A stretch of DNA of 64,000 nucleotides, taken from assembly GCF_024832785.1 (NCBI RefSeq), contig NZ_CP116615.1:3100001-3164000 (forward strand). Direction: 5' to 3'. The DNA comes from Fontisphaera persica (lineage in GTDB: Bacteria > Verrucomicrobiota > Verrucomicrobiia > Limisphaerales > Fontisphaeraceae). Shown one piece after another: positions 36,769 through 52,572 of this stretch. The notes below the pieces were generated by a model, which saw nothing but the letters and a program-made list of their open reading frames with translations, was not told the origin of the DNA and did not search any database. The translations under genes were made by a program, and so were the position numbers. Numbering within the stretch: the first letter of the stretch is position 1; each line of letters starts with the position of its first letter.

Positions 36769-39700
36769 TTATTTGTCTCCGCGGACTCGGCGCAAATATT
36801 CCACGGCATTGGTCTGAGCGCGCTCCCACTTGAGGCGGGCCGCCGCATCTTCGGAGGCTTTGCGCTCATGTTGATTGATTTTAGGGCCGGCCTTCCAATG
36901 ACCGAAGTGCTCGGCTATCACCAGCCATTGCAAAATCTCCGGCGCAAGCATAAACCGCTCAATGCGCGTCGAAACTGCTCCTTGCGAGCCCAGGCGATTT
37001 TCCACCTCATAAAGCAGGTAAGCGGCGCGGGCGGCCAGGACGCCGTTTTCGTCGCGTATCAGGTCTTCACAATGCTGCCAGATTTCGTTGCGCAGAGCTG
37101 CCTTTTGTTCATCCCTCGACTGGTTTTGCGCAGGGCTGCCTTTCGAAGAATACATTTCCTTGTAAAGATTCGCGGCATGTTCCAAACGCGCGGCGGGATG
37201 CCCCTTGCGGGCCGCTTCCACGAGGTAGTTGTGGGCCACCGACTCGTCCCCGCCCCGGGACGAAGGCAGCAGCTCATTGGCAATCAAGTACCACACCCGG
37301 AATTGGGAGTCCGCATCGCCGGCCCGGGCGGCGCTTTCCCATTGGCGGCGCGCCTCAGCCAGGTTGGGCTTGAATTCGCGCTCCCGTCCCAATTCTTCCG
37401 GCCCACGCCCCCGCCAGCCGAGGGCGTGGCGCATGGCCAGGACCGGGGCAGGCACGTTTTTGGAAGGCGTCTCCAACTGGGGCGCCGGCCGGGGCACCGG
37501 CTCGGGGACGGCATCGGTAATCTCCAAGACCACGCGAAAGCCAACGTCATCCTCCTTGGTGGACGGTGGCGCACTGCGCCGGAAAGAGGCCAGCCAGGCG
37601 GTGGAATACACCCCATGCACCACGTCCCATTTCCAGGAGCCGCCCCGCAAAACCCGTTCTGAGCTTTGGTTGTCCAGGGCATCCTCCACCCATTCCCAAG
37701 CGTTGCCGCCCATGTCAAACAATCCTCGCTCATTGGGCGGAAACATGCCCACCGGCGCCAGCCGCTCGAAGAAGTCAAAGCTCACAAACTGCGGAAAATT
37801 ACCGCAATTGACGCGCGGCGGGAATTCGCGGCCCCACACATACCACGGCGCGCCCAAGCGTCCGGAGCGTTCCATGGGCGTGGCACCCGGCTCCTCCGGC
37901 AGGCCAAAAGCAAGGCTCCATTCGGCATCGGTGGGCAGGCGATAGCGATGATTGGAGGAAATGCGGAAGCCACTCTCGTTCCTTTGCAACTGCGCGCAGA
38001 AATTGCGGGCGTCCTCCCAACTCACGCCCACGATGGGCGCCTGATGAATGTTCCCTTCCGCCCCCCCCTCTTTAGTCCCGCGCGCCAGTTCTTCATAGGG
38101 CACCGTGAGCGGCGGGCGGATCATTCTCATGACATTGGTATAATCGCACACCCGGCATTCCCACACCGCCATGAACACCTTGCGGTTCAAGTTCACAAAC
38201 TTCATCCCCAGGCTGTTCGTCCAGTAGCGTTCATCGCCCTGCGGCCCCGGCCAGAATTGGAGCGCCTGGGTGACGGTCAGGCTGGATTGGGGGCGCAACC
38301 CCAAGGCTTGCGCATCGAGGACAAACGGGGTGGGCCGATGATTGGGCATCCGCGCCAACAGGGAGAGCTTCTCCGCCAAACCCACTTCGGGCAGCACCAA
38401 GGGGGGCTGGCCGGTTTCGCGCACCAGATTCGTGCCCAGCCACAAGCGCGCGCCGGGGGGTTGCGTTTCAAGAGCCAGCGACGCAAAAGGCAGCCGCAAG
38501 CTCACCTGGTTGCTTTGCCCCGCGGCCACTTCCACTTCCGCCGTCACCTGCCAGTCATTGGTGCCCAGCCCCGGCAGAGTGAAGGCGCGGGGTTTGGTGG
38601 CCGTCAGCCGGTAACGCCCCGTGGGCAGACCCGCCAGCAGGCCGGCGGCGGCGGTTTCCTGTGGCCCCCATTCATTTCGCAAGCCAGCCTCCGAACGCAC
38701 CTGCTCCACCCGCAGCCGCCCTCCCGATGGGCTCACCTCCACCAACAGCGCACCCGTGCTGCGCCGCAAAGCCGGCAGCTCCACTTCCGTCACGGGGCCT
38801 GAGGAGACGGACACGCGCCGCTCGAGGGTCTCATGGCCGGGCGCGGTAGCCCGCACCAGATAAAAACCAGTGGGCAAATTCTCAAATGTCACCGCCCGCC
38901 CGGCTTTGCTTTCCTGCTCCACGCGTTCTCCCGGCGCCAGCGGGGCCTCCGGCCCGCTCACCTGGAGCCTGGCGGTGGCGGGCGACGTCAGGCTGACCCG
39001 CAAGCCGCCGAGCAGGCGCGGCAGAATGATTTTCGGCGGTTGCGTGGTGCGCTCAGGCTGAATGTGCAGCCGCGCCACGTAATTGGAAAAACCGGGGGCA
39101 GTGACGCGCAGCTCATATTCCCCCACCGGCAGACCCGCGGCTGGCGCGGTCAAGCTTCCGGCTTCCTGATTGGTGAGGCGCAAAGACAAGGGCGCATCCA
39201 CAGCCGTTAGCTCGGCGCGGGCCTGCGCGGGCGCGAACTCCACCACCAGGCCACCGCGGAGGGGCTCCAAGGTGAGGATGCCCAGATTGGTCACCACCCC
39301 GGAGGTGACGGTAAAACGCCGCCGCAACGGTTGATAGCGGGCCAGCCCCACCTCCAGCTCGTACTCGCCGGTGGGCAAATCCACGCGCTCATTGTAACGC
39401 GCCTGCGCCACATCCCCGCCCGGCAAATCCGGGGTCAGATAACGCAGGTAATTCGTGGCCTGCAGGGGTTGCACCCGGAAGACCACTCCGCCCAGGCTGC
39501 GCGCCAGCCGCACCACCTGCTGGTTGGTCTGGCGCTCGAGAATGGTGAGGCTTTCCAGGCGCGTGTCGTACCCGGGCAATTCGACCTGCAACGTGTAAGC
39601 CCCTGTGGGCAGTTCCACCAGCTCGCCGGAGCGCAACGGCCGGTTGGGTTGCAACGTCAACACCGCGGCCGCCGGCTCCGCCTGCACGCGCAACCAGCCG

Positions 39701-42249
39701 GTGATGCGCTGCAATTCCAGGCGCCCCAGCGCCACCGGTTGCTCGGCGGTCACCGCAAATTGCTGGGTCCGCATGTAATAACCGGAGGCCGTGAGCACCA
39801 GGGCATACTCGCCCACCGGCAATTTCTGCCGAAACTCCTCCGTGATGGTTCCGCTCAATTCCACCGGCCCGTGCAGGGTAAAACGGGCCTGCGGCACGGC
39901 CACACTGAAGGACAGCTCGCCCTGCAGGCGGCTTAATTCACCCACCACCTGGATCAACCGCTCCTCCGGCACCGTCACATTGGTGACAAACCCGCCATAT
40001 TGCGCCGCCTCGAGGCTCACCCGCCACACGCCAGCGGGCAGATTGGTCAACAGCGCCGGACACCTCCCGCTCAATCGCTGGCCTTCCGGACCGGTCAGCG
40101 TGTATTGCGCGCCGGAGGGGCGCGAGTCCACCTGCAATTGTCCAATGCTTCGCTCCAACACCGGCGCCAGCCACACCGTCTCCTGCGCGGTCAACGTGAC
40201 ATTGGTCGTCCATGGCCGGTAACCCGTGCGCGTGAGGCTCACCTCGTATTCCCCCACGAGCAATTTATGGCTGAACTCCGCAGCCCTTTGCTTGATGGCG
40301 GCCGGTAACTGCCCCGTCTCGGCGCGGCGCGGCGTGACCGTGACCTGGGCATCGGGCGGCACGGCTTTGAGCGCCAAGGTGCCGGTCTGGGGCGCCAAAC
40401 GCACCGTCACCCGCTGGTACCGCGCATAGGGCGTGCCTTCCTGCGCCGCCAGCGAGAGAACATTGGTCACCGGCCAATATCCCGGCCGGCTGGCCATCAG
40501 TTCGTACTGGCCCGGCTCCACTTGATGAAACTCCCGTCCGCCGGCCTGCGGAGCATAAGTTTTGGCGCCGCGCAGCTCCAGCCGGGCATCCGGCGGCTCA
40601 ACCTCCACCACCACGTATCCCGCCGGGTGCCGCAGCCGCTCGTAATAACGCCAGCCTTGAAAACCGCCGAAAACCAAGCCGGCCAGTAATGCCACCAAGG
40701 CGGCCGCTTTGACCATCGCCAGCCAGCGTTGCCGCCGCTCCGAGGTGAGCCAGGGTTCGCTTGGTCGCGGGGGTTCTGGTCGCGGTTGAGCCGGCGGCTC
40801 CGGCGGCGGAGCTGGCGGTGCAGGAGGAGAGGGAGGTGGGACGGCTGGCGGGCCGGCGGCTGGCCTGTGGGTGGTGGCTCGCTCGGGATGAGGAATGGCT
40901 TTCTCGGTCGGCGTTGCTGCAGACGTCGCAGCTTCGACCGCCTTTGTGGTGGGGGGCGGCGGGGCAGGCGGTCGTGGGGCGGCGGTAGTCGGTGGACGGG
41001 GCGGCGGGGATTCCGGTGGAATGTCGTGTGGAATGGGGGCGGCTGGTTGGGACGGGGGCTTGTCCGTGGTTTTGGCGGTAGGCGGCGTGGTGGGCGGGCG
41101 CGCCGTGGCTGGAGGGGTCGCCAAGGGCGGCCCGGACAGCTCGGTTTCCACTTCAATCATGACGCCGCGCGCGGAGCGTCCCGTGCCGCGTTTGGGTTTG
41201 GGGGGTGGTTCGGCCGGCGTTGACGGCGCCGGCTGGGCAGGCTTGGGCGGAGTTTTGTGAGGCGCGTCTGCCACCACGGTAGGCTCTTCGGGCGCACTCA
41301 CCTGGATTGCCGAAGGCCGGCCGGCGAGTCCGGCCCCTGCCGGACGGCCGCTGAGATTCAAGCGTTCAATAATCTCCATCGCCGAAGCCGGGCGCTGGGC
41401 GGGGTCCTTGTGCAGACAAGCGGCCAGCGTGCGCTCCCAGGCGGGTGGGATTTTTTTGCCTTCAATGCCCAGTTCCTTGCGGCGCTGCTGCAAGGTGGGC
41501 GGCGCTTTCTCGCGCACCTGCGCCAGGATTTCCCCGGTGAAAAACGGCGGCTTGCTGGTCAACAGTTCGTACAGCGTCGCCCCCACTGCGTAAATATCAT
41601 CGGCCACCGACGGAGGCTCGCCCATGGCCTGTTGCGGGCTCATGTACACCAGCGTCCCCGAGACGCCGCCTTTGTTCAGGGTGACGCGCGTGAGGCTGTC
41701 GGCCACGCTGCGCGCGATGCCGAAATCGGTGATCTTCAACCGGCCCTGCGGGTCCACCATGAGGTTGGCCGGTTTCAGGTCCCGATGCACAATCTTCACC
41801 TCTTTGTGCGCGTAATCCAGCGCCTGGCAAAGCTGGTACACCCACGGCTGCAGCTCCTCCACTTCAAAAATCTTGCCCGGCCGGGTCAGCCGCAAATTGG
41901 CCAGCGTGTCGCCCGCCACATATTCCATGGAAATGCCGGCGCAATTTTCATCCTGAAAAAAATAGTAAAACTTGACGATGTACTGATGCGACAGTTCCAG
42001 GCTCCGGCGGGCTTCCCGCTTCAACTCCTCCAGGGCGGCGCGGTCCTTGGCCAGCACTTCCGGCAGGAATTTCAGCGCCACATCAAAATCCAGCGATTCA
42101 TCGTGGGCCAGCCAGACCACCCCCATGCCGCCGCGCCCCAGCACGCGCTGCAGCGTGAAACGATTGAGCACCTTTTGGCCAGGCACCAGCCCGCGCACGG
42201 TGATGCCCAAATCCAGGTCCGTCAATGGATTGATGTTTTCGGCACTCAT
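36769..42249 (-). CDS. Giant Ser/Thr protein kinase with PEGA repeats, SUMF1 domain and Sel1-like tail
   Basis: 1826 residues. Kinase domain 33-310 with GRGGMGVVW, Lys60, HRDLKPAN (Asp157) and DFG (175-177): all catalytic residues are present. A Pro/Ala-rich linker (about 310-510) leads to one membrane helix (about 510-540), about ten PEGA-like repeats of the form LPxGEYxLxxxxxGY (about 545-1330), a formylglycine-generating-enzyme-like SUMF1 domain (about 1336-1580, GLFDMGGNAWEWVEDA, RVLRGGSW) and a Sel1-like helical tail (about 1616-1826). Cytoplasmic kinase with an envelope-facing sensor and binding part is the likely topology. The ATG at 42249 matches the start of the paralogue at 52572; the frame also opens with TTG at 42264. 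Confidence 0.92.
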   Translation of the reverse strand: MSAENINPLTDLDLGITVRGLVPGQKVLNRFTLQRVLGRGGMGVVWLAHDESLDFDVALKFLPEVLAKDRAALEELKREARRSLELSHQYIVKFYYFFQDENCAGISMEYVAGDTLANLRLTRPGKIFEVEELQPWVYQLCQALDYAHKEVKIVHRDLKPANLMVDPQGRLKITDFGIARSVADSLTRVTLNKGGVSGTLVYMSPQQAMGEPPSVADDIYAVGATLYELLTSKPPFFTGEILAQVREKAPPTLQQRRKELGIEGKKIPPAWERTLAACLHKDPAQRPASAMEIIERLNLSGRPAGAGLAGRPSAIQVSAPEEPTVVADAPHKTPPKPAQPAPSTPAEPPPKPKRGTGRSARGVMIEVETELSGPPLATPPATARPPTTPPTAKTTDKPPSQPAAPIPHDIPPESPPPRPPTTAAPRPPAPPPPTTKAVEAATSAATPTEKAIPHPERATTHRPAAGPPAVPPPSPPAPPAPPPEPPAQPRPEPPRPSEPWLTSERRQRWLAMVKAAALVALLAGLVFGGFQGWRYYERLRHPAGYVVVEVEPPDARLELRGAKTYAPQAGGREFHQVEPGQYELMASRPGYWPVTNVLSLAAQEGTPYARYQRVTVRLAPQTGTLALKAVPPDAQVTVTPRRAETGQLPAAIKQRAAEFSHKLLVGEYEVSLTRTGYRPWTTNVTLTAQETVWLAPVLERSIGQLQVDSRPSGAQYTLTGPEGQRLSGRCPALLTNLPAGVWRVSLEAAQYGGFVTNVTVPEERLIQVVGELSRLQGELSFSVAVPQARFTLHGPVELSGTITEEFRQKLPVGEYALVLTASGYYMRTQQFAVTAEQPVALGRLELQRITGWLRVQAEPAAAVLTLQPNRPLRSGELVELPTGAYTLQVELPGYDTRLESLTILERQTNQQVVRLARSLGGVVFRVQPLQATNYLRYLTPDLPGGDVAQARYNERVDLPTGEYELEVGLARYQPLRRRFTVTSGVVTNLGILTLEPLRGGLVVEFAPAQARAELTAVDAPLSLRLTNQEAGSLTAPAAGLPVGEYELRVTAPGFSNYVARLHIQPERTTQPPKIILPRLLGGLRVSLTSPATARLQVSGPEAPLAPGERVEQESKAGRAVTFENLPTGFYLVRATAPGHETLERRVSVSSGPVTEVELPALRRSTGALLVEVSPSGGRLRVEQVRSEAGLRNEWGPQETAAAGLLAGLPTGRYRLTATKPRAFTLPGLGTNDWQVTAEVEVAAGQSNQVSLRLPFASLALETQPPGARLWLGTNLVRETGQPPLVLPEVGLAEKLSLLARMPNHRPTPFVLDAQALGLRPQSSLTVTQALQFWPGPQGDERYWTNSLGMKFVNLNRKVFMAVWECRVCDYTNVMRMIRPPLTVPYEELARGTKEGGAEGNIHQAPIVGVSWEDARNFCAQLQRNESGFRISSNHRYRLPTDAEWSLAFGLPEEPGATPMERSGRLGAPWYVWGREFPPRVNCGNFPQFVSFDFFERLAPVGMFPPNERGLFDMGGNAWEWVEDALDNQSSERVLRGGSWKWDVVHGVYSTAWLASFRRSAPPSTKEDDVGFRVVLEITDAVPEPVPRPAPQLETPSKNVPAPVLAMRHALGWRGRGPEELGREREFKPNLAEARRQWESAARAGDADSQFRVWYLIANELLPSSRGGDESVAHNYLVEAARKGHPAARLEHAANLYKEMYSSKGSPAQNQSRDEQKAALRNEIWQHCEDLIRDENGVLAARAAYLLYEVENRLGSQGAVSTRIERFMLAPEILQWLVIAEHFGHWKAGPKINQHERKASEDAAARLKWERAQTNAVEYLRRVRGDK

Positions 42250-42358: not shown

Positions 42359-43547
42359 TGGGAAAGACTGGGTAGATCATGACCCCCCCGTGGTTAAGAT
42401 CAACGTGTTGAGTGCACGCCGCAAGGATGAGCTGCTGCACCTCCTCCGGAGGAGGTGCAGCAGCGGCGCGCCCCATCTGCTATCCTCCCGGCGTGCACAC
42501 CACCTACTTTGAATTGTACCGTATGCGCACCCACCGCCATTGGTTGCGACAAAAACTCGTCGCCTTCGCCAAAACCCACGGCATCAAAGCCGCCGTCCGC
42601 GAGTTCGGCTGTTCCCGCAACACCGTCCGTAAATGGCTCCGACGCCACGTGCCCGGCAAGCCCTCCTCCCTCCAAGAACACAGCCGCCGCCCACGACGCT
42701 CCCCCCGCCGTATCCCCTCCGGCCTCGAAGGCCAAATCGTCAAACTCCGCCACCAAACCGGCTTCGGCGCCGAACGCCTCCAGCGCGAATTCGCCCTCCC
42801 TGCAGCCACAACGCCATCGCCCGCGTCCTCCGCCAACACCATCTCCTCCGCCCACGCAAAAGAAACCCGCCACCAAAAACTCCTCCGCGCCCTCAAACGG
42901 AACTGGCCACTCTTCTCCCAACTCTCCGCCGATACCAAGTATTTACAGGACATTCCCCATTACTGGCCCCAAATGAACCGCCTCCACCTCCCCGCTTCCA
43001 ATACACCGTCCGCGAACCAGTCTCCGGCGCCTGCTTCACCGGCTACGCCGACGAACTCTCAAATCCTACGCCACCCTCCTGGCCACACAACTCTCCGCCC
43101 ACCTCGCCGCCCACGGCGTCAACCTCACCACCCTGGTCTGGCAAACCGACAACGGCAGTGAATTCCAAGTCAACCAACACCACCAAGGCCTCCCCGCCAC
43201 CGTCCGCGCCCTCGGCTCCGACCACCGCTTCATCCCTCCCAAACGCTACACCTGGCAAAGCGACGTCGAAACCGTCCACCGCCTGGTCGAAGACGAATTC
43301 TTCGACCGCGAAACCTTCTCCAGCCCCCAAGACTTTTGGGCCAAAATCACCACCTACTGGCTGTACTTCAACCTCGTCCGCCCCAACCGCGGCAAAGAAT
43401 GGCAAAGCCCACTCCAAATCCTCAACGCCAAGGCCCCAGCCCTCGCCGGGGCCCTAATCCACTGGCTCCCCCTCAACCTCTCCCAACCCCACCATCCCGA
43501 CTTGCCTCCACCCCTCCACCGGGGTCATGATCTACCCAGCTTTCCCT
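42359..43547 (+). mobile_element. IS481-type insertion sequence, about 1.19 kb, decayed
   Basis: Ends form near-perfect terminal inverted repeats: GGGAAAGACTGGGTAGATCA on the left and, reading inward, GGGAAAGCTGGGTAGATCA on the right (one-base gap). A 15-bp direct duplication flanks the element. A single DDE-type transposase frame with several frameshifts fills it. Length, one-gene organisation and a long duplication fit the IS481 group. Removing the element and one duplication copy restores a 21-codon frame (42314 to 43583), so the insertion is fairly young even though the transposase is broken. Confidence 0.88.
42431..42464. repeat. Perfect 34-bp palindrome inside the IS
   Basis: Arm GCTGCTGCACCTCCTCC (42431-42447) is followed without a loop by its exact complement (42448-42464). 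It lies between the left terminal repeat and the transposase frame. The right arm contains GGAGGAGG, so a folded transcript would hide a ribosome-binding sequence. Confidence 0.85.
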
Positions 43548-43549
43548 AA
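42523..43549 (+). pseudogene. IS481-type transposase, frameshifted
   Basis: N-terminal helix-turn-helix (LVAFAKTHGIKAAVREFGCSRNTVRKWLRRH), then the DDE core in pieces: CSHNAIARVLRQHHLL, NWPLFSQLSADTKYLQDIPHYWP, FQYTVREPVSGACFTGYADEL, VWQTDNGSEF, WQSDVETVHRLVEDEFF, YFNLVRPNRGKEWQSP. Following these segments requires frame changes near 42800, between about 42850 and 42880, near 43000 and near 43065. The first, third and fourth look like single-base losses. An upstream in-frame ATG at 42427 is possible. The stop at 43547 uses two bases of the duplicated target. Not functional as read. Confidence 0.85.
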
Positions 43550-44386: not shown

Positions 44387-45775
44387 ATGCAAATTACCGC
44401 CGAAAAGGTATGGGATTCGGCCCAGCAATCCTTGCGGGGCATGTTGAATCCGGACATCTACAAACTTTGGTTTGCGCCAGTGCGAGCAGTGGATGTCACG
44501 AACGAGGAAATCCTCCTCGAAGTCCCCAATGATTTCTTTGAGGTCTGGCTCAAGGACAATTATCTGGGGCTGTTGCGTGATGCGGTGGCGCATGCCACGG
44601 GACAGAACTTGAACATCAAGTTCAAGACCGCCGCCCCGGGCACCCTGCTGGCGCCCCCCGAGCCGGAGCCGCCCCCGGCGCGCCCGGCCAGCACCGGCCG
44701 CGGTCGCCAGCGCCAGCAGGCCGAAGCCGAGGCCATCAACGGGCATAATCGCGAATCCATTTTCAATCCGCGCAATACCTTTGACACCTTCGTGGTGGGG
44801 GATAACAACGTGATGGCCCACGGCGCCTCGATGGCCGTCGCGCAAAATCCCGGCAAAGCCTACAATCCGCTCTTCCTCTACGGCGGGGTGGGGCTGGGCA
44901 AAACGCACCTGCTGCACGCCATCGGGCAGTATGTGGTGGCCCATAAAAAGACTGCGCGCGTGGCGTACGTCTCCTGCGAAAAGTTCACCAACGAATTCAT
45001 TGACGCCATTCAAAGCGGCACGCTGGCGCGGTTCCGCAAAAAATACCGGCAGACGGATGTGCTGCTGATTGACGACATCCAGTTTCTCAGCGGCAAGGAG
45101 CGCATTCAGGAGGAGTTTTTCCACACCTTCAACGCCCTGCATGAGGCGCACATGCAGATTGTGCTTTCCTGCGACCGCCCCCCCAGCGAAATCAACGGGC
45201 TGGAGGACCGCCTCATCACCCGTTTCGAGTGGGGGATGGTGAGCGATTTGCAGCCGCCGGATGTCGAAACGCGCGTGGCCATCCTGCGCAAAAAACAGGA
45301 ATTGATGGGCCTGAAGCTGCCGGATGAAATCATCAATTTCCTGGCCAGCCGCATCCGCACCAACATCCGCCGACTGGAAGGCGCGCTGACCCGGGTGGCG
45401 GCTTATGCCTCGCTGACGCGCAAACCGCTGACGCTGGATGCCGTGGAGAACTTGTTGCGCGAAGTGCTGCACGAGGAGGGCCAGACCCATGTGACGGTGG
45501 AGGTCATCCTCAAGCGCGTGGCGGAGCATTTTGATTTGCGCCTGTCCGACCTCACCGGCCGGCGGCGGCCGGAGAACATCGCCTTCCCGCGCCAGATTGT
45601 CATGTACCTGGCGCGCGAGCTGACCGAAAGCTCGCTCAACACCATCGGCGAGGCGCTGGGAGGACGCGACCACGGCACGGTATTGCACGGTTGCCGGCTG
45701 GTCAAAGACCGCATGGAGGTGGACCCCAACGTGCGCAAGCTGGTGGAGCACCTGAAGCAATCCTTGTTGCGCTAG
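44387..45775 (+). CDS. dnaA: Chromosomal replication initiator protein DnaA
   Basis: 462 residues. Domain I (1-80, VWDSAQQSLRGMLNPDIYKLWFAPV) is followed by a short Pro/Arg/Gln linker, the AAA+ domain (about 122-340) with Walker A GGVGLGKTHLL, Walker B VLLIDDIQFLSGK and sensor LEDRLITRFEWGM, and the DNA-binding domain IV (about 365-462) with GGRDHGTVLHGCRLV. It binds DnaA boxes and opens the origin. No dnaN, recF, gyrB or rpmH lies beside it: the next gene is convergent, so the classic dnaA cluster is broken here, as in many PVC genomes. Confidence 0.97.
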   Translation: MQITAEKVWDSAQQSLRGMLNPDIYKLWFAPVRAVDVTNEEILLEVPNDFFEVWLKDNYLGLLRDAVAHATGQNLNIKFKTAAPGTLLAPPEPEPPPARPASTGRGRQRQQAEAEAINGHNRESIFNPRNTFDTFVVGDNNVMAHGASMAVAQNPGKAYNPLFLYGGVGLGKTHLLHAIGQYVVAHKKTARVAYVSCEKFTNEFIDAIQSGTLARFRKKYRQTDVLLIDDIQFLSGKERIQEEFFHTFNALHEAHMQIVLSCDRPPSEINGLEDRLITRFEWGMVSDLQPPDVETRVAILRKKQELMGLKLPDEIINFLASRIRTNIRRLEGALTRVAAYASLTRKPLTLDAVENLLREVLHEEGQTHVTVEVILKRVAEHFDLRLSDLTGRRRPENIAFPRQIVMYLARELTESSLNTIGEALGGRDHGTVLHGCRLVKDRMEVDPNVRKLVEHLKQSLLR

Positions 45776-48292: not shown

Positions 48293-49831
48293 TCAAGGTG
48301 GGGATGGCCGCGCCGCCGCGGCATAGAGGGTGCGCATGGTGGCCACGTAGAGCACGCCGTTGGCGGCCACGGGCGTGGCCACGATGGCGCTGTCCAGTTG
48401 CAGGGTGGCCAGCACCCGCAGCTCGCGGCCGGTGGCCAGCACCGCCAAATCTCCGCGCCGTGAGCCGATATAGACCCGGCCATCGGCCACCAAAGGCGAG
48501 GACCAGATTTCGCCGGCCAGTTGATGCCGCCAATACACCTGGCCGGTGGCGGCATCGGCGCAAAGGACCTGGCCCGAGCAATCGGCCGCATAGACCAATC
48601 CCTCATGCACCGCCGGCGTGGAGCAGGTGTGCCGCTGCAGGGGCACGGACCACACCAGCGCGTGGGCGGTGATGTCCCCCTCGCCGGTGATGGCGTAACA
48701 CTTGAGCCAGGCTTCATTTTTGCCCCACCAAATGTCGCCGCCGCCCGTGACGTACACCCGGTCCCCCACGACCACCGGCGTGCTCTTGATGTTGCTGGGG
48801 CTTTCCTTGCGATTGCTGATGAACCGGTGCACGTCCTCCTTGGGGCCGGTGGGATCAAAATCAATCTGCCAGCGCTTCTGCAAAGTCCCCGGCTCGCTGC
48901 CACCGGCGGCCCCCGCCCAGGGCGTAAATCCGTAAATCACGCCGTCTCCGCCGCAGAAGATAATCTGCTCCACGCCCTGCACCCGCGCCAGGGCCGGTGG
49001 AGACCACGTGCAATGAAAAATGCGCGGGCCCATGTTTTCGCGGTCGCGCGCCAGGTAGCGGCCGGTGTGTTTATCCAGCACAATCAGGCTGGGACCCTCG
49101 GGGCGGCGAATGCGCCGGTGGGTGTTGTCCACGCCGTTGCCGGAATTCAGGTACAAGTGGTCGCCGCGGATTAGAATCGCCGCATGGGCGCCGTCGTGCG
49201 GCCAGATGCCCGCCTGCTCCGGCACATCAAAACGCCAGAGAATATCAGCATCCAGCGGCCCGGGAGTCATCCGCGGCGCGTTGGTGGGGGTCAGGTACTG
49301 GCCTTCGTCGGTGTAGGGGCCGTCATTGCCGTTGGCCAGCCCTTCCAAATCGAGGCACAACACGCTGCGCCGGTTGTCGAGGATGTAGGCACGGTTGCCC
49401 TCGATGGTGGCCGAGGCGCAGATGCCGGCATGGGGCCAGTCCTGGTAAATGTCATCGTTGTATTTGGGCGTCACCAGTTGCCAGCGCAACTGGCCGGTGG
49501 CCTCGTCCAGACACAGCAACACGCCGCGATCCCCTTGATGTTTGGAATCGCGCGGGCGGTTGTTGTTCGTGCCGATGAGCACCACGCCCCGCCCCACCAC
49601 GGGAGTGGAATAAGTTTCCGTGCCCAAGGCGGCGGTCCACTTGAGGTTCCGGCCGGTTTGAGGGTCAAAGGATTCCGGCAGGCCGCGTTCGTACGAAACC
49701 ATGTTGCGGCTCCACGCCTGGCCCCACTGCGGCTGGTCCGCCGCCGGCGCGGCGCAAAAAGCCGCCCCGCACATCGCCCACCAAGCCGCCCGTCCCACAG
49801 CTTGCTTTAGCGCCCGCGCTTGAGAAATCAT
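48293..49831 (-). CDS. Secreted PQQ-type beta-propeller protein
   Basis: About 512 residues from the ATG at 49831, which overlaps the stop of the upstream pseudokinase as ATGA. An N-terminal signal peptide (about 1-32, AAWWAMCGAAFCAAPAA) precedes repeats such as WTAALGTETYSTPVVGRGVVLIGTNN, DKHTGRYLA, SNIKSTPVVVGDRVYVTGGGDIWWG, ADAATGQVYWRHQLAGEIWSSPLVADGRVYIGS. These are PQQ-like blades without evident dehydrogenase quinone ligands, so it is more likely a scaffold or sensor domain in the periplasm. The coupling to the kinase-like gene is the strongest clue to its role. Confidence 0.85.
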   Translation of the reverse strand: MISQARALKQAVGRAAWWAMCGAAFCAAPAADQPQWGQAWSRNMVSYERGLPESFDPQTGRNLKWTAALGTETYSTPVVGRGVVLIGTNNNRPRDSKHQGDRGVLLCLDEATGQLRWQLVTPKYNDDIYQDWPHAGICASATIEGNRAYILDNRRSVLCLDLEGLANGNDGPYTDEGQYLTPTNAPRMTPGPLDADILWRFDVPEQAGIWPHDGAHAAILIRGDHLYLNSGNGVDNTHRRIRRPEGPSLIVLDKHTGRYLARDRENMGPRIFHCTWSPPALARVQGVEQIIFCGGDGVIYGFTPWAGAAGGSEPGTLQKRWQIDFDPTGPKEDVHRFISNRKESPSNIKSTPVVVGDRVYVTGGGDIWWGKNEAWLKCYAITGEGDITAHALVWSVPLQRHTCSTPAVHEGLVYAADCSGQVLCADAATGQVYWRHQLAGEIWSSPLVADGRVYIGSRRGDLAVLATGRELRVLATLQLDSAIVATPVAANGVLYVATMRTLYAAAARPSPP

Positions 49832-52572
49832 TTGGATAACACCACGCGAAACCCGTAATCCGGGCGCCGTTCTTTGGCGTCCACCAGCAGCCGGTAAGAA
49901 GCCGCCAGTGTGCCGGGGATGTAACCGAAGTGGGAGCCGCCGCGCAGCACACGTTGCTTCTGGGCGGCGTCCCCCCAATCCTGCACCCATTCCCAGGCGT
50001 TGCCGCCCAGGTCAAAAAGCCCCTTGGCATTGGGCATGAAACTGGCCACCGGCGCCGTGTTTTCGAAGCGGTCGAAAGTGAGGTAATCGGCATAGTTGCC
50101 CGCGCCCGTGGGCGGCGGCCATTCCTGGCCCCAGGGATACACCCCCGCCAGGCGTCCGCTGCGCTCGGCCGGCGTGGCGCCCGATTCCTGCGGCAACCCC
50201 GCCGCCAGACTCCATTCCACGTCGGTGGGCAGCCGGTAAAGCTGGTCGGCGCCAATGATTCCCTCCTTGCGCTCGCGCTGGGTCAGCCAGTCACAGAAGC
50301 GCACGGCGTCCTCGTAATTCACGTTGACCACCGGGTGCGTGGGCGCCTGTTGGAACCCCGGCTCCTTCCAGGCCAGCTCGGCAAAACGCGCATCCAGCGC
50401 GAAACGCGAAAAATCCTGCACGCGGGTTTCCCAGGCGCAGATGAACACATTGCCCAGCGGGACCATCCGCATGCCCAGTGAATTGTGCCAGATTTTGCCG
50501 GGCGCCGGCCGGCTTTCCACCAGCGCCAACTGGGCCTGCTGGGCGCTCTTTTGCTCTTGCGCCGCTTTCATCTCGGCGGCTTTCCGGGCCTCTTCCGCGC
50601 GCCGCGCTTCCTCGGCGCGGCGGGCTTCCTCGCTAAGCTTGGCCAGGCGTGCCTGGCGCTCGGCCTCGGCACGGCGGGCCGCTTCCTCCAGTTTGCGGCG
50701 CGTCTCTTCTTCGGCCTTCAAGCGGGCCTTTTCGGCTTCCGCCAGTTTGCGCTCCAGCTCCGCCTTGCGGGCCGCCTCCTCCTCGCGGCGCTTGCGTTCT
50801 TCTTCGATGGCGGCCTGCGCCTTGGCCTCCAGTTCCTTGCGGGCGCGCTCCTCCTCCTCCAGCTTTTTCGCAGCGGCTTCCGCCGCCAGGCGGGTGGCCT
50901 CGGCTTCCTTCAAAGCAGCTTCCGCTGCGGCTTTGATGCGCTCGGCCTCCGCCCGCTGGGCGGCCAGTTGGGCTTCAATCTTCCGGCGCTCGGCCTCGGC
51001 GGCGGCGTCGCCGCCGGCTTTTTTGGCCGCCTCCTCGGCCAGCCGCTTCAAGTCCGCCTCTTTTTTGAGGATGGCCAGGCGCTCGGCTTCCAGGCGTTTG
51101 GCTTCCTCTTCCGCCGCCCGTTTCTTGGCCAGCGCCTCGGCTTCGCGCTTGCGGGCCTCCTCTTCCGCCTGCCGCCGGCGCGCCTCCGCCTCCTCCTGGG
51201 CTTTTTTGGCCTGGGCGGCGGCAATTTCCAGGGCCTTGCGGCGTTGCTCCAGTTCTTCCTCGGCTTTTTTCTTTTCCTCCTCGAGCCGTTTGCGCTCTTC
51301 ATCCAACTTCCGCTGAAGGGCTTCCCGCTCGAAGGCCAGCCGGCGTTCCAATTCCTCGGCGCTCAGGCCGGCGTTGGTGGAAGCATCCGGCGGCGTGGTG
51401 GTGGCCACGGGCGCGCTGGCCGGATGCATCTGCGTGCTGATGTACCACCCGACAATGCCCAGAATGACCCCTACCATCACCGCAATAATCGGCACCAGGC
51501 TCTTCTTGGGCGGGGCCGCCGCGGCCGGCGTGGGCGTCGGCGTGCCGGGGATGTTCATGGTGGGGACGGGCGGCGTGGGAGTCGCGGCCACGGCCGGAGC
51601 CGCGGGCGCCAGCGGAGCGGCCGCCGCTTTGAAAGGCTCAGGCGGGGTTGGCAGGGGAGGCCGCTTGCAGGGGCCGTAGAGCTCCAGGCGGTCCGCCACC
51701 TCCTCCATGCTTTCCGGGCGATACGCCGGCTCCTTGGCCAGGCAGCCGGCCACCGTTTCATCCCAGGCCCGCGGGATGGGCTCGCCCAATATCCGCATGT
51801 CCCGGCGGCGGCGGGTCATCGTGGGCGGCACATCTTCTTTGACCTGCGAAATGATGTTGCCGGTATTAAAGGGCGGCTTGCTGGTAATCAACTCATAGAG
51901 ACAAACGCCCAGCGAATAAACATCATCGGACACCGTGGGCGGATTGCCTTCCAATTGCTGGGGGCTGCAGTACCGAAAACTTTGCGCCACATCGCGCGGG
52001 CTGCCCTCGAGCTTGTTGACCCAGAAGCCCAGGAGGGCATCCAGGCGGGCGTCTGTGATGATGATTTCCCCCGTCTGCGCCAGCAGCAGGTTGGTGGGTT
52101 TGAGATTGCCGTGCGCCTGGCCTTTGGCGTGCAATGCCCCCAGGTTTTTGGTGATGGGTTTGAGCCATTCTTTCAGGTCCACCGCATCGAAGACCTGATT
52201 CTTGCGCTGCTGGCGCAAATCATGCAGGCTGGCTCCCTCAATCCATTCCTCCACCACGGCGGCCAGCGGCCCTTCGGTCACCCAGTCATACACCCGCGCC
52301 AGGCCGGGGGTTTCAAGCTGTTTTAATTCCCCCACCACGGCGGCAATCTGCGCCATCGCCTCCGGTGTGCCGGTCACGCGCGCCGGCAGAAACTTCAAGG
52401 TCACATCGCGGCTGCCCTGGTCATCCCATGCCTGCCAGACGGCGCTGTTGCGGCCCCGGCCAATCAGCCGCACCAAACAATACCGGTTGAACACAAATTG
52501 CCCGGCGGCCAGGCTGCGCACGGCCTCGCCTAAATCCACTTCGGGGGGGGTGGGGGAACTATTGGCTGACAT
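49828..52572 (-). CDS. Pseudokinase-coiled coil-SUMF1 membrane protein
   Basis: 914 residues, paralogous over its ends to the protein at 36769. Kinase-like domain 31-300: Lys60 is kept, but the catalytic HRD Asp is Asn156 (AHGNLKPTN), DFG reads DAR (174-176), and the glycine loop reads IGRGRNSAVW. It is therefore predicted inactive. A Pro/Ala linker is followed by one membrane helix (about 365-390, VPIIAVMVGVILGIVGWYI), a roughly 290-residue Ala/Glu/Lys/Arg coiled coil (about 400-685) and a SUMF1 domain (about 695-914, GLFDLGGNAWEWVQDW, RVLRGGSHFGY). It heads a five-gene minus operon. The coiled coil probably holds SUMF1 away from the membrane. Confidence 0.9.
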   Translation of the reverse strand: MSANSSPTPPEVDLGEAVRSLAAGQFVFNRYCLVRLIGRGRNSAVWQAWDDQGSRDVTLKFLPARVTGTPEAMAQIAAVVGELKQLETPGLARVYDWVTEGPLAAVVEEWIEGASLHDLRQQRKNQVFDAVDLKEWLKPITKNLGALHAKGQAHGNLKPTNLLLAQTGEIIITDARLDALLGFWVNKLEGSPRDVAQSFRYCSPQQLEGNPPTVSDDVYSLGVCLYELITSKPPFNTGNIISQVKEDVPPTMTRRRRDMRILGEPIPRAWDETVAGCLAKEPAYRPESMEEVADRLELYGPCKRPPLPTPPEPFKAAAAPLAPAAPAVAATPTPPVPTMNIPGTPTPTPAAAAPPKKSLVPIIAVMVGVILGIVGWYISTQMHPASAPVATTTPPDASTNAGLSAEELERRLAFEREALQRKLDEERKRLEEEKKKAEEELEQRRKALEIAAAQAKKAQEEAEARRRQAEEEARKREAEALAKKRAAEEEAKRLEAERLAILKKEADLKRLAEEAAKKAGGDAAAEAERRKIEAQLAAQRAEAERIKAAAEAALKEAEATRLAAEAAAKKLEEEERARKELEAKAQAAIEEERKRREEEAARKAELERKLAEAEKARLKAEEETRRKLEEAARRAEAERQARLAKLSEEARRAEEARRAEEARKAAEMKAAQEQKSAQQAQLALVESRPAPGKIWHNSLGMRMVPLGNVFICAWETRVQDFSRFALDARFAELAWKEPGFQQAPTHPVVNVNYEDAVRFCDWLTQRERKEGIIGADQLYRLPTDVEWSLAAGLPQESGATPAERSGRLAGVYPWGQEWPPPTGAGNYADYLTFDRFENTAPVASFMPNAKGLFDLGGNAWEWVQDWGDAAQKQRVLRGGSHFGYIPGTLAASYRLLVDAKERRPDYGFRVVLSK

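Follow-up and report, generated by a model that had tools for sequence, protein, structure and literature searches.

Within the stretch of DNA analysed here (the window, 64,000 nucleotides, positions 3,100,001–3,164,000 of a 4.73-Mb single-contig genome), dnaA sits between two genes for kinase-like membrane proteins, P1 and P2. The initial annotation placed both inside one 16-kb stretch, in agreement with a span of 15.8 kb, and read them as an active kinase and a dead partner that flank the origin and may work as a pair. The locus raises the question of what a protein with a disabled kinase domain does, and whether it does so together with this particular neighbour.

The P1 gene (49828–52572, minus strand, 914 aa from an ATG start, with orthologues in five other genomes) has exactly the layout first ascribed to it, as judged from the open reading frame, Pfam and hydropathy. 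A kinase-like domain (aa 33–290, 51703–52476, minus strand; Pfam Pkinase PF00069, E 1.9e-27) is followed by a single transmembrane (TM) helix predicted by hydropathy at about aa 360–378 (51439–51495, minus strand), a coiled-coil-like, Lys/Glu/Ala-rich stalk of ~290 aa that is predicted to be extracytoplasmic (50503–51372, minus strand; the charged stretch in the sequence spans about aa 401–690), and a SUMF1/FGE-like domain (49831–50502, minus strand; Pfam FGE-sulfatase, aa 729–911, E 5.3e-29). Pfam finds no domains in P1 beyond Pkinase and SUMF1. AlphaFold2 predicts a complete kinase fold for aa 1–312 (pLDDT 93.2, pTM 0.90), for which the nearest solved structures in Foldseek are PknA (4x3f) and PknB (3f69). 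Pfam and the predicted structure, with PknA and PknB as its top structural matches, place P1 in the bacterial Hanks-type (bSTK) fold. At the other end of the protein, a role as formylglycine-generating enzyme (FGE) was considered and rejected. True FGEs use a C-terminal Cys pair, Cys336/Cys341 in human SUMF1. No such pair is present near the C-terminus of any P1 or P2 SUMF1 domain; the C-terminal part of the domain is devoid of Cys in P1 and in its congener and G013 orthologues, and an isolated single Cys occurs in the SUMF1 domain of some relatives only. By analogy with GldK/PorK-type proteins, the SUMF1 domains of P1 and P2 are probably binding domains.

Alignment confirms that HGN replaces HRD in P1 (52105–52113, minus strand), with loss of the catalytic Asp, and that DAR replaces DFG (52045–52053, minus strand), with the metal-binding Asp kept as D174. 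The Gly loop reads GRGRNSAVW, the β3 motif VTLK keeps Lys60, the catalytic loop HGNLKPTN keeps Asn161, and the αC Glu is replaced by Val. The genome encodes about nine Pkinase proteins. A kinase-domain profile search over 320 genomes of the order fetched about 175 domains with P1-like profiles, so that counts within this set do not describe a random sample of kinases. Six of these are P1-type proteins, from this genome (G000), G001, G013, G004, G101 and G102, which represent four genera and four families of one Verrucomicrobiota order, probably Limisphaerales; G000 and G001 belong to the same genus and their P1 proteins are 90–91% identical. All six share the kinase-TM-coil-SUMF1 layout and form one clade (UFB 100 / aLRT 99 in a 91-row LG+C20 tree), with longer branches in the G000/G001/G013 lineage. 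The HRD triplet reads HGN in G000, G001, G101 and G102, HGA in G013 and HGS in G004, such that its Asp is lost in 6/6 and P1 falls under the published definition of a pseudokinase, in which at least one of the β3 Lys, HRD Asp and DFG Asp is missing (PMC12599244), while the β3 Lys, the catalytic-loop Asn and the DFG Asp are kept in every member. Catalytic loss is a trait of the whole P1 clade. Beyond the known members, neither a GTDB r220 scan nor a 387-genome sample of the phylum adds to the clade, yielding HRD-type kinases only, and no plasmid relatives of P1 were found at E 1e-40. The HRD Asp is also missing in two others among the ~175 domains, G004 C83 (HRA) and one in G007 (QGA), which lie elsewhere in the tree. 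These pseudokinases of the same order, unrelated to P1, are encoded at L085:9900-12434 (G004, HRA/DFS) and L019:673-2685 (G007, QGA/DVG).

Loss of the canonical catalytic Asp does not always abolish activity, as SelO and SidJ lack it and yet have another activity (PMC12599244). P1 could in principle bind ATP and perform a non-canonical transfer, AMPylation as in SelO or glutamylation as in SidJ, or phosphorylate weakly. Retention of the Lys, Asn and Asp throughout the clade is consistent with this, and SelO reads H-G-x with DYG, superficially as in G101 and G102 (PMC12599244). However, G000, G001 and G013 lack the αC Glu, the residue at the base position is free to vary (N/A/S), and conservation in the P1 clade is lowest across the catalytic and activation segment, as would not be expected of a selected active site. 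We consider residual catalysis quite unlikely.

Comparison of G000 with G001 establishes that P1 is under purifying selection. Over the whole protein its dN/dS is 0.064 (kinase domain 0.074, coil 0.058, SUMF1 0.057), against 0.082 for dnaA and 0.188 for P2 (0.065 in the P2 kinase domain). With a value of 0.06, below that of dnaA, P1 is therefore maintained and not decaying, and outside the kinase domain it is held more tightly than P2. That P1 might be a former kinase gene in decay is suggested by its degenerate motifs and by the longer branches in the G000/G001/G013 lineage; this is contradicted by the selection data, which cover the whole protein, and by an intact reading frame kept in four genera, and we regard decay as extremely improbable.

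What is conserved in P1 was addressed by comparing regional identity in five P1-type sequences with that in 2000 random quintets of active relatives matched in overall identity. Relative to the whole domain, identity in the αF–αG region (aa 233–272, 51757–51876, minus strand) is +0.19 in P1 versus −0.12 ± 0.03 in the quintets, none of which is as high, and identity across the catalytic loop, DFG and activation segment is −0.08 versus +0.04 ± 0.03, with no quintet as low; the regions were picked after viewing the alignment, and G101 and G102 are close congeners. The αG excess is unchanged after dropping G102 (0.654 vs 0.464 overall). As such, αF–αG is the most conserved region in the P1 clade and the least conserved in active kinases. 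A second change concerns the position of PknB Leu33, the hydrophobic anchor of the PknB back-to-back dimer; PknB L33D mutants are among the structural matches of the P1 kinase model. This position is Gly53 in P1 (52414–52416, minus strand, by alignment with active relatives) and reads G/G/Q/A/Q/Q across the six P1 proteins, while Leu occupies it in 160/167 active relatives and in 4/4 P2 proteins. Of the contacts of the PknB-type dimer, the clade has the Leu33 equivalent in 0/6 members and the Asp76 equivalent in 5/6, which does not match a protein that forms this dimer. Selection in P1 has moved to the αG region, and the Leu33 anchor has been lost.

The sequence of αG in P1 resembles that of the active relatives (RR..L.I.G..IP..WE.T), and its strong conservation would also fit a decoy, or competitive inhibitor, that still has the surface with which an active SUMF1 kinase docks and that ties up the substrate of that kinase. 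Co-occurrence of P1 with a specific active kinase is incomplete, which argues against this reading and makes it rather unlikely. The conservation of αG might alternatively serve stability or a homodimer. We favour the interpretation, with a probability of about one half, that P1 is a receptor-like pseudokinase, conserved and non-catalytic, most likely a signal adaptor or scaffold, and that it probably acts by partner binding rather than by phosphorylation.

P2 is one candidate partner. Its gene (36769–42249, minus strand) encodes 1826 aa from an ATG, with an in-frame TTG five codons upstream, and the product combines an active-type kinase domain (Pfam Pkinase, E 8e-46), a TM helix, PEGA repeats, a SUMF1 domain and a tail. 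The full catalytic set (K/E/HRD/N/DFG) is intact, as the initial annotation had stated along with the PEGA and SUMF1 content. The tail of P2 in this genus (window 36772–37500, aa about 1585–1830) bears a weak Sel1-like resemblance, with a signal of 7.5–8.5 bits and no match to Pfam Sel1 in the P2 C-terminus; judged by sequence, this extra segment is possibly a fused, Sel1-like partner.

In its strongest form, the pairing idea holds that P1 heterodimerises with P2 and switches it allosterically, as in STRAD-LKB1 or HER3-HER2. Co-conservation, which had been proposed as a check of the pair, holds in one direction. P2 orthologues score about 640 bits with a P2 profile in four genomes (G000, G001, G101 and G102), the next hit reaching at most 367 bits, a gap that is partly built in as the profile was made from these very sequences, and all four genomes carry P1. 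P2 was not detected in two of the six P1 carriers, G013 and G004, both MAGs that are only about 89–90% complete, which argues against P2 as an obligatory partner. The carriers of P2 are a subset of those of P1, a suggestive hint of association, and P1 appears independent of P2 for its own occurrence. In addition, the 76% complete genome G100, from the genus of G101 and G102, encodes a P2-like kinase/PEGA/SUMF1 protein and gave no P1 match. The G101 orthologue of P2 (L130:3582-7841) has an in-frame TAG between its kinase and PEGA parts, either an assembly error or real.

Phylogeny leaves the relationship of the two proteins loose. A recent duplication that would make P1 the direct sister of P2 is absent from the best tree, in which P1 groups with an HRD kinase, though sisterhood, at a cost of 1.7 log units, withstands the AU test (p 0.41). 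The shared N-terminal start noted at the outset is present in both proteins, but its leader, DLG...GQ...R(Y/F), also occurs in other kinases of the group and is a family trait. Both proteins carry SUMF1, and both are Sel1-associated in g65 genomes, which favours pairing. Loss of the Leu33 equivalent, the PknB-type dimer anchor, speaks against the simplest kinase-domain heterodimer with P2; a direct complex may form through other faces, for which αG, the coiled coil and SUMF1 are candidates. Outside this genome the positions of P1 and P2 are unlinked, and here a multicopy insertion sequence (IS) interrupts their adjacency. From the active/dead pair, a conserved, predicted-inactive paralogue whose sisterhood with the P2 clade is not rejected survives; the placement by dnaA and the obligatory role of P2 do not. 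An obligate pair is on balance improbable.

Proximity to dnaA was the other pillar of that proposal. The dnaA gene (44387–45775, plus strand) is the sole full DnaA gene of the genome, and only two DnaA-box-like sites, both one-mismatch matches, lie upstream of it. Sampling of GC skew over 60 stretches, each of 20 kb, gives values close to zero and no switch around dnaA (3.06–3.24 Mb; dnaA at about 3.144 Mb), while sharp minus-to-plus switches occur near 2.6, 3.7 and 4.5 Mb; a change from plus to minus near 1.4 Mb lies roughly across the chromosome from the 3.7 Mb switch. The distance from dnaA to this best origin candidate is about 0.55 Mb. With several sharp switches, the chromosome looks recently rearranged. 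Between P2 and dnaA lies an IS element of 1.19 kb (42359–43549, plus strand), of which the genome holds 11 copies at 99–100% identity, the window copy included. Most differences among the copies are single-base gaps, and the window copy has a broken transposase frame; assembly indels or a frameshift mechanism may account for this. In the sister species G001, the block dnaA, spermine-synthase-like gene, next gene, pfkB, PQQ gene and P1 is kept, with P2 on a different contig; in G102, dnaA, P1 and P2 each have a separate contig, with dnaA 53 kb inside its own. The GC skew, the contigs of the sister species and the IS speak against a pair that flanks the origin, and linkage of the pair to dnaA is likewise not supported. 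Rearrangement best accounts for the adjacency of P1, P2 and dnaA and, because the multicopy IS is a likely agent of it, proximity to dnaA in this genome should not be read as evidence of function.

A PQQ/BamB-like β-propeller gene with a likely signal peptide (Pfam; 48293–49831, minus strand) begins with an ATG that overlaps the P1 stop codon. The same ATGA overlap is found in both G000 and G001, which suggests co-expression of P1 and the PQQ gene. In G013 and G102, the 3′ end of P1 faces a convergent Sel1-repeat gene that neighbours metG and encodes a signal peptide, and the same arrangement is found in G101. Similarly, a convergent Sel1 gene accompanies the G102 P2 gene and the G100 P2-like gene. 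The five genes (L073:16508-17302, L131:7384-8169, L129:6205-6990, L132:7404-8102 and L339:11251-12069) all lie beside P1-, P2- or P2-like genes. A secreted Sel1 gene within 600 bp downstream was found for 5/159 kinase genes, all of them P1, P2 or P2-like, in a small and phylogenetically clustered sample of genes followed by 700 bp or more of sequence; the G101 P2 gene, which also has a convergent Sel1 gene, was left out of the count as its reading frame is split. Convergent Sel1 genes are present at three of the six P1 loci (G013, G101 and G102). They are absent beside P1 in its own genus (G000 and G001) and in G004; the Sel1 orthologue of this genome lies at 1,941,130, away from P1.

From these results, a model of P1 as adaptor or scaffold can be drawn. 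The cytoplasmic kinase fold would probably still bind nucleotide yet no longer transfer phosphate, and the single TM helix would join it to the extracytoplasmic coiled-coil stalk, at whose end the SUMF1/FGE-fold domain would sense a ligand. This envelope ligand is perhaps delivered by, or complexed with, a secreted repeat protein, for which the candidates are the Sel1-like proteins of several relatives and possibly the PQQ propeller in this genus. Binding of the ligand would alter how the coiled coil assembles, and on the cytoplasmic side the pseudokinase would dock a partner through its αF–αG surface, P2 being one candidate. More specifically, and only tentatively, P1 may represent a new verrucomicrobial family of receptor pseudokinases whose αG docking face has come under the selection that once acted on the active site and on the PknB-type dimer face, and in which the SUMF1 stalk works with a convergently encoded, secreted Sel1 protein to give a non-catalytic transmembrane module.

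Bacterial Ser/Thr pseudokinases are almost unstudied. A 2025 review lists seven bSTK families that are rich in them (PMC12599244), and P1, to judge from its motifs, fits none of the seven, as none has loss of the HRD Asp alone, with Lys and DFG Asp kept, as a rule. The text of the review mentions neither Verrucomicrobiota nor Planctomycetes, sulfatase domains, PEGA or a SUMF1 sensor, and in the open-licence literature we found no published description of a P1-type family; a new family of non-catalytic receptor-like pseudokinases is the best reading. Active receptor Ser/Thr kinases of the PknB/PknA type share the kinase fold and the arrangement of a cytoplasmic kinase, one TM helix and an extracytoplasmic sensor, whereas P1 has lost the HRD Asp and the Leu33 anchor and carries, where these kinases have PASTA, a coiled-coil stalk with SUMF1. 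In ActPs1-3 and GLW every motif is degraded (PMC12599244). ActPs3/MviN of Actinobacteria is, like P1, a bacterial Hanks-type pseudokinase within a membrane protein; its three motifs are all degraded (VALT, Y--) and the Leu/Asp contacts of the back-to-back dimer are present, and MviN, a studied bacterial pseudokinase, retains the PknB-type dimer (PMC12599244), whereas in P1 the Lys and the DFG Asp are still there and the Leu is gone. The actinobacterial ActPs2 shares the change of the HRD Asp to Asn (PMC12599244) but has Arg for the β3 Lys and deletions at DFG, where P1 keeps Lys and Asp. In the CP1 family, about 40% of which are pseudokinases, some members similarly lose a single motif; these proteins are soluble, without a TM helix, and COG3899-linked, unlike P1 with its TM helix and SUMF1. 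EssB/YukC is also a membrane pseudokinase, with a scaffolding role (PMC12599244), but all its motifs are degraded and it belongs to the T7SS, to which we see no link for P1. DYD and DLHK keep HRD and lose an ATP- or metal-binding motif, the reverse of the pattern in P1. The verrucomicrobial SUMF1/PEGA Ser/Thr kinases, P2 among them, have the N-terminal leader, αG motif, TM helix and SUMF1 of P1 and are intact and active-type where P1 is not. With such clear active relatives, clade-wide loss of catalysis and constraint that has measurably shifted towards one surface, P1 is a compact case of a receptor kinase turned non-catalytic signalling protein.
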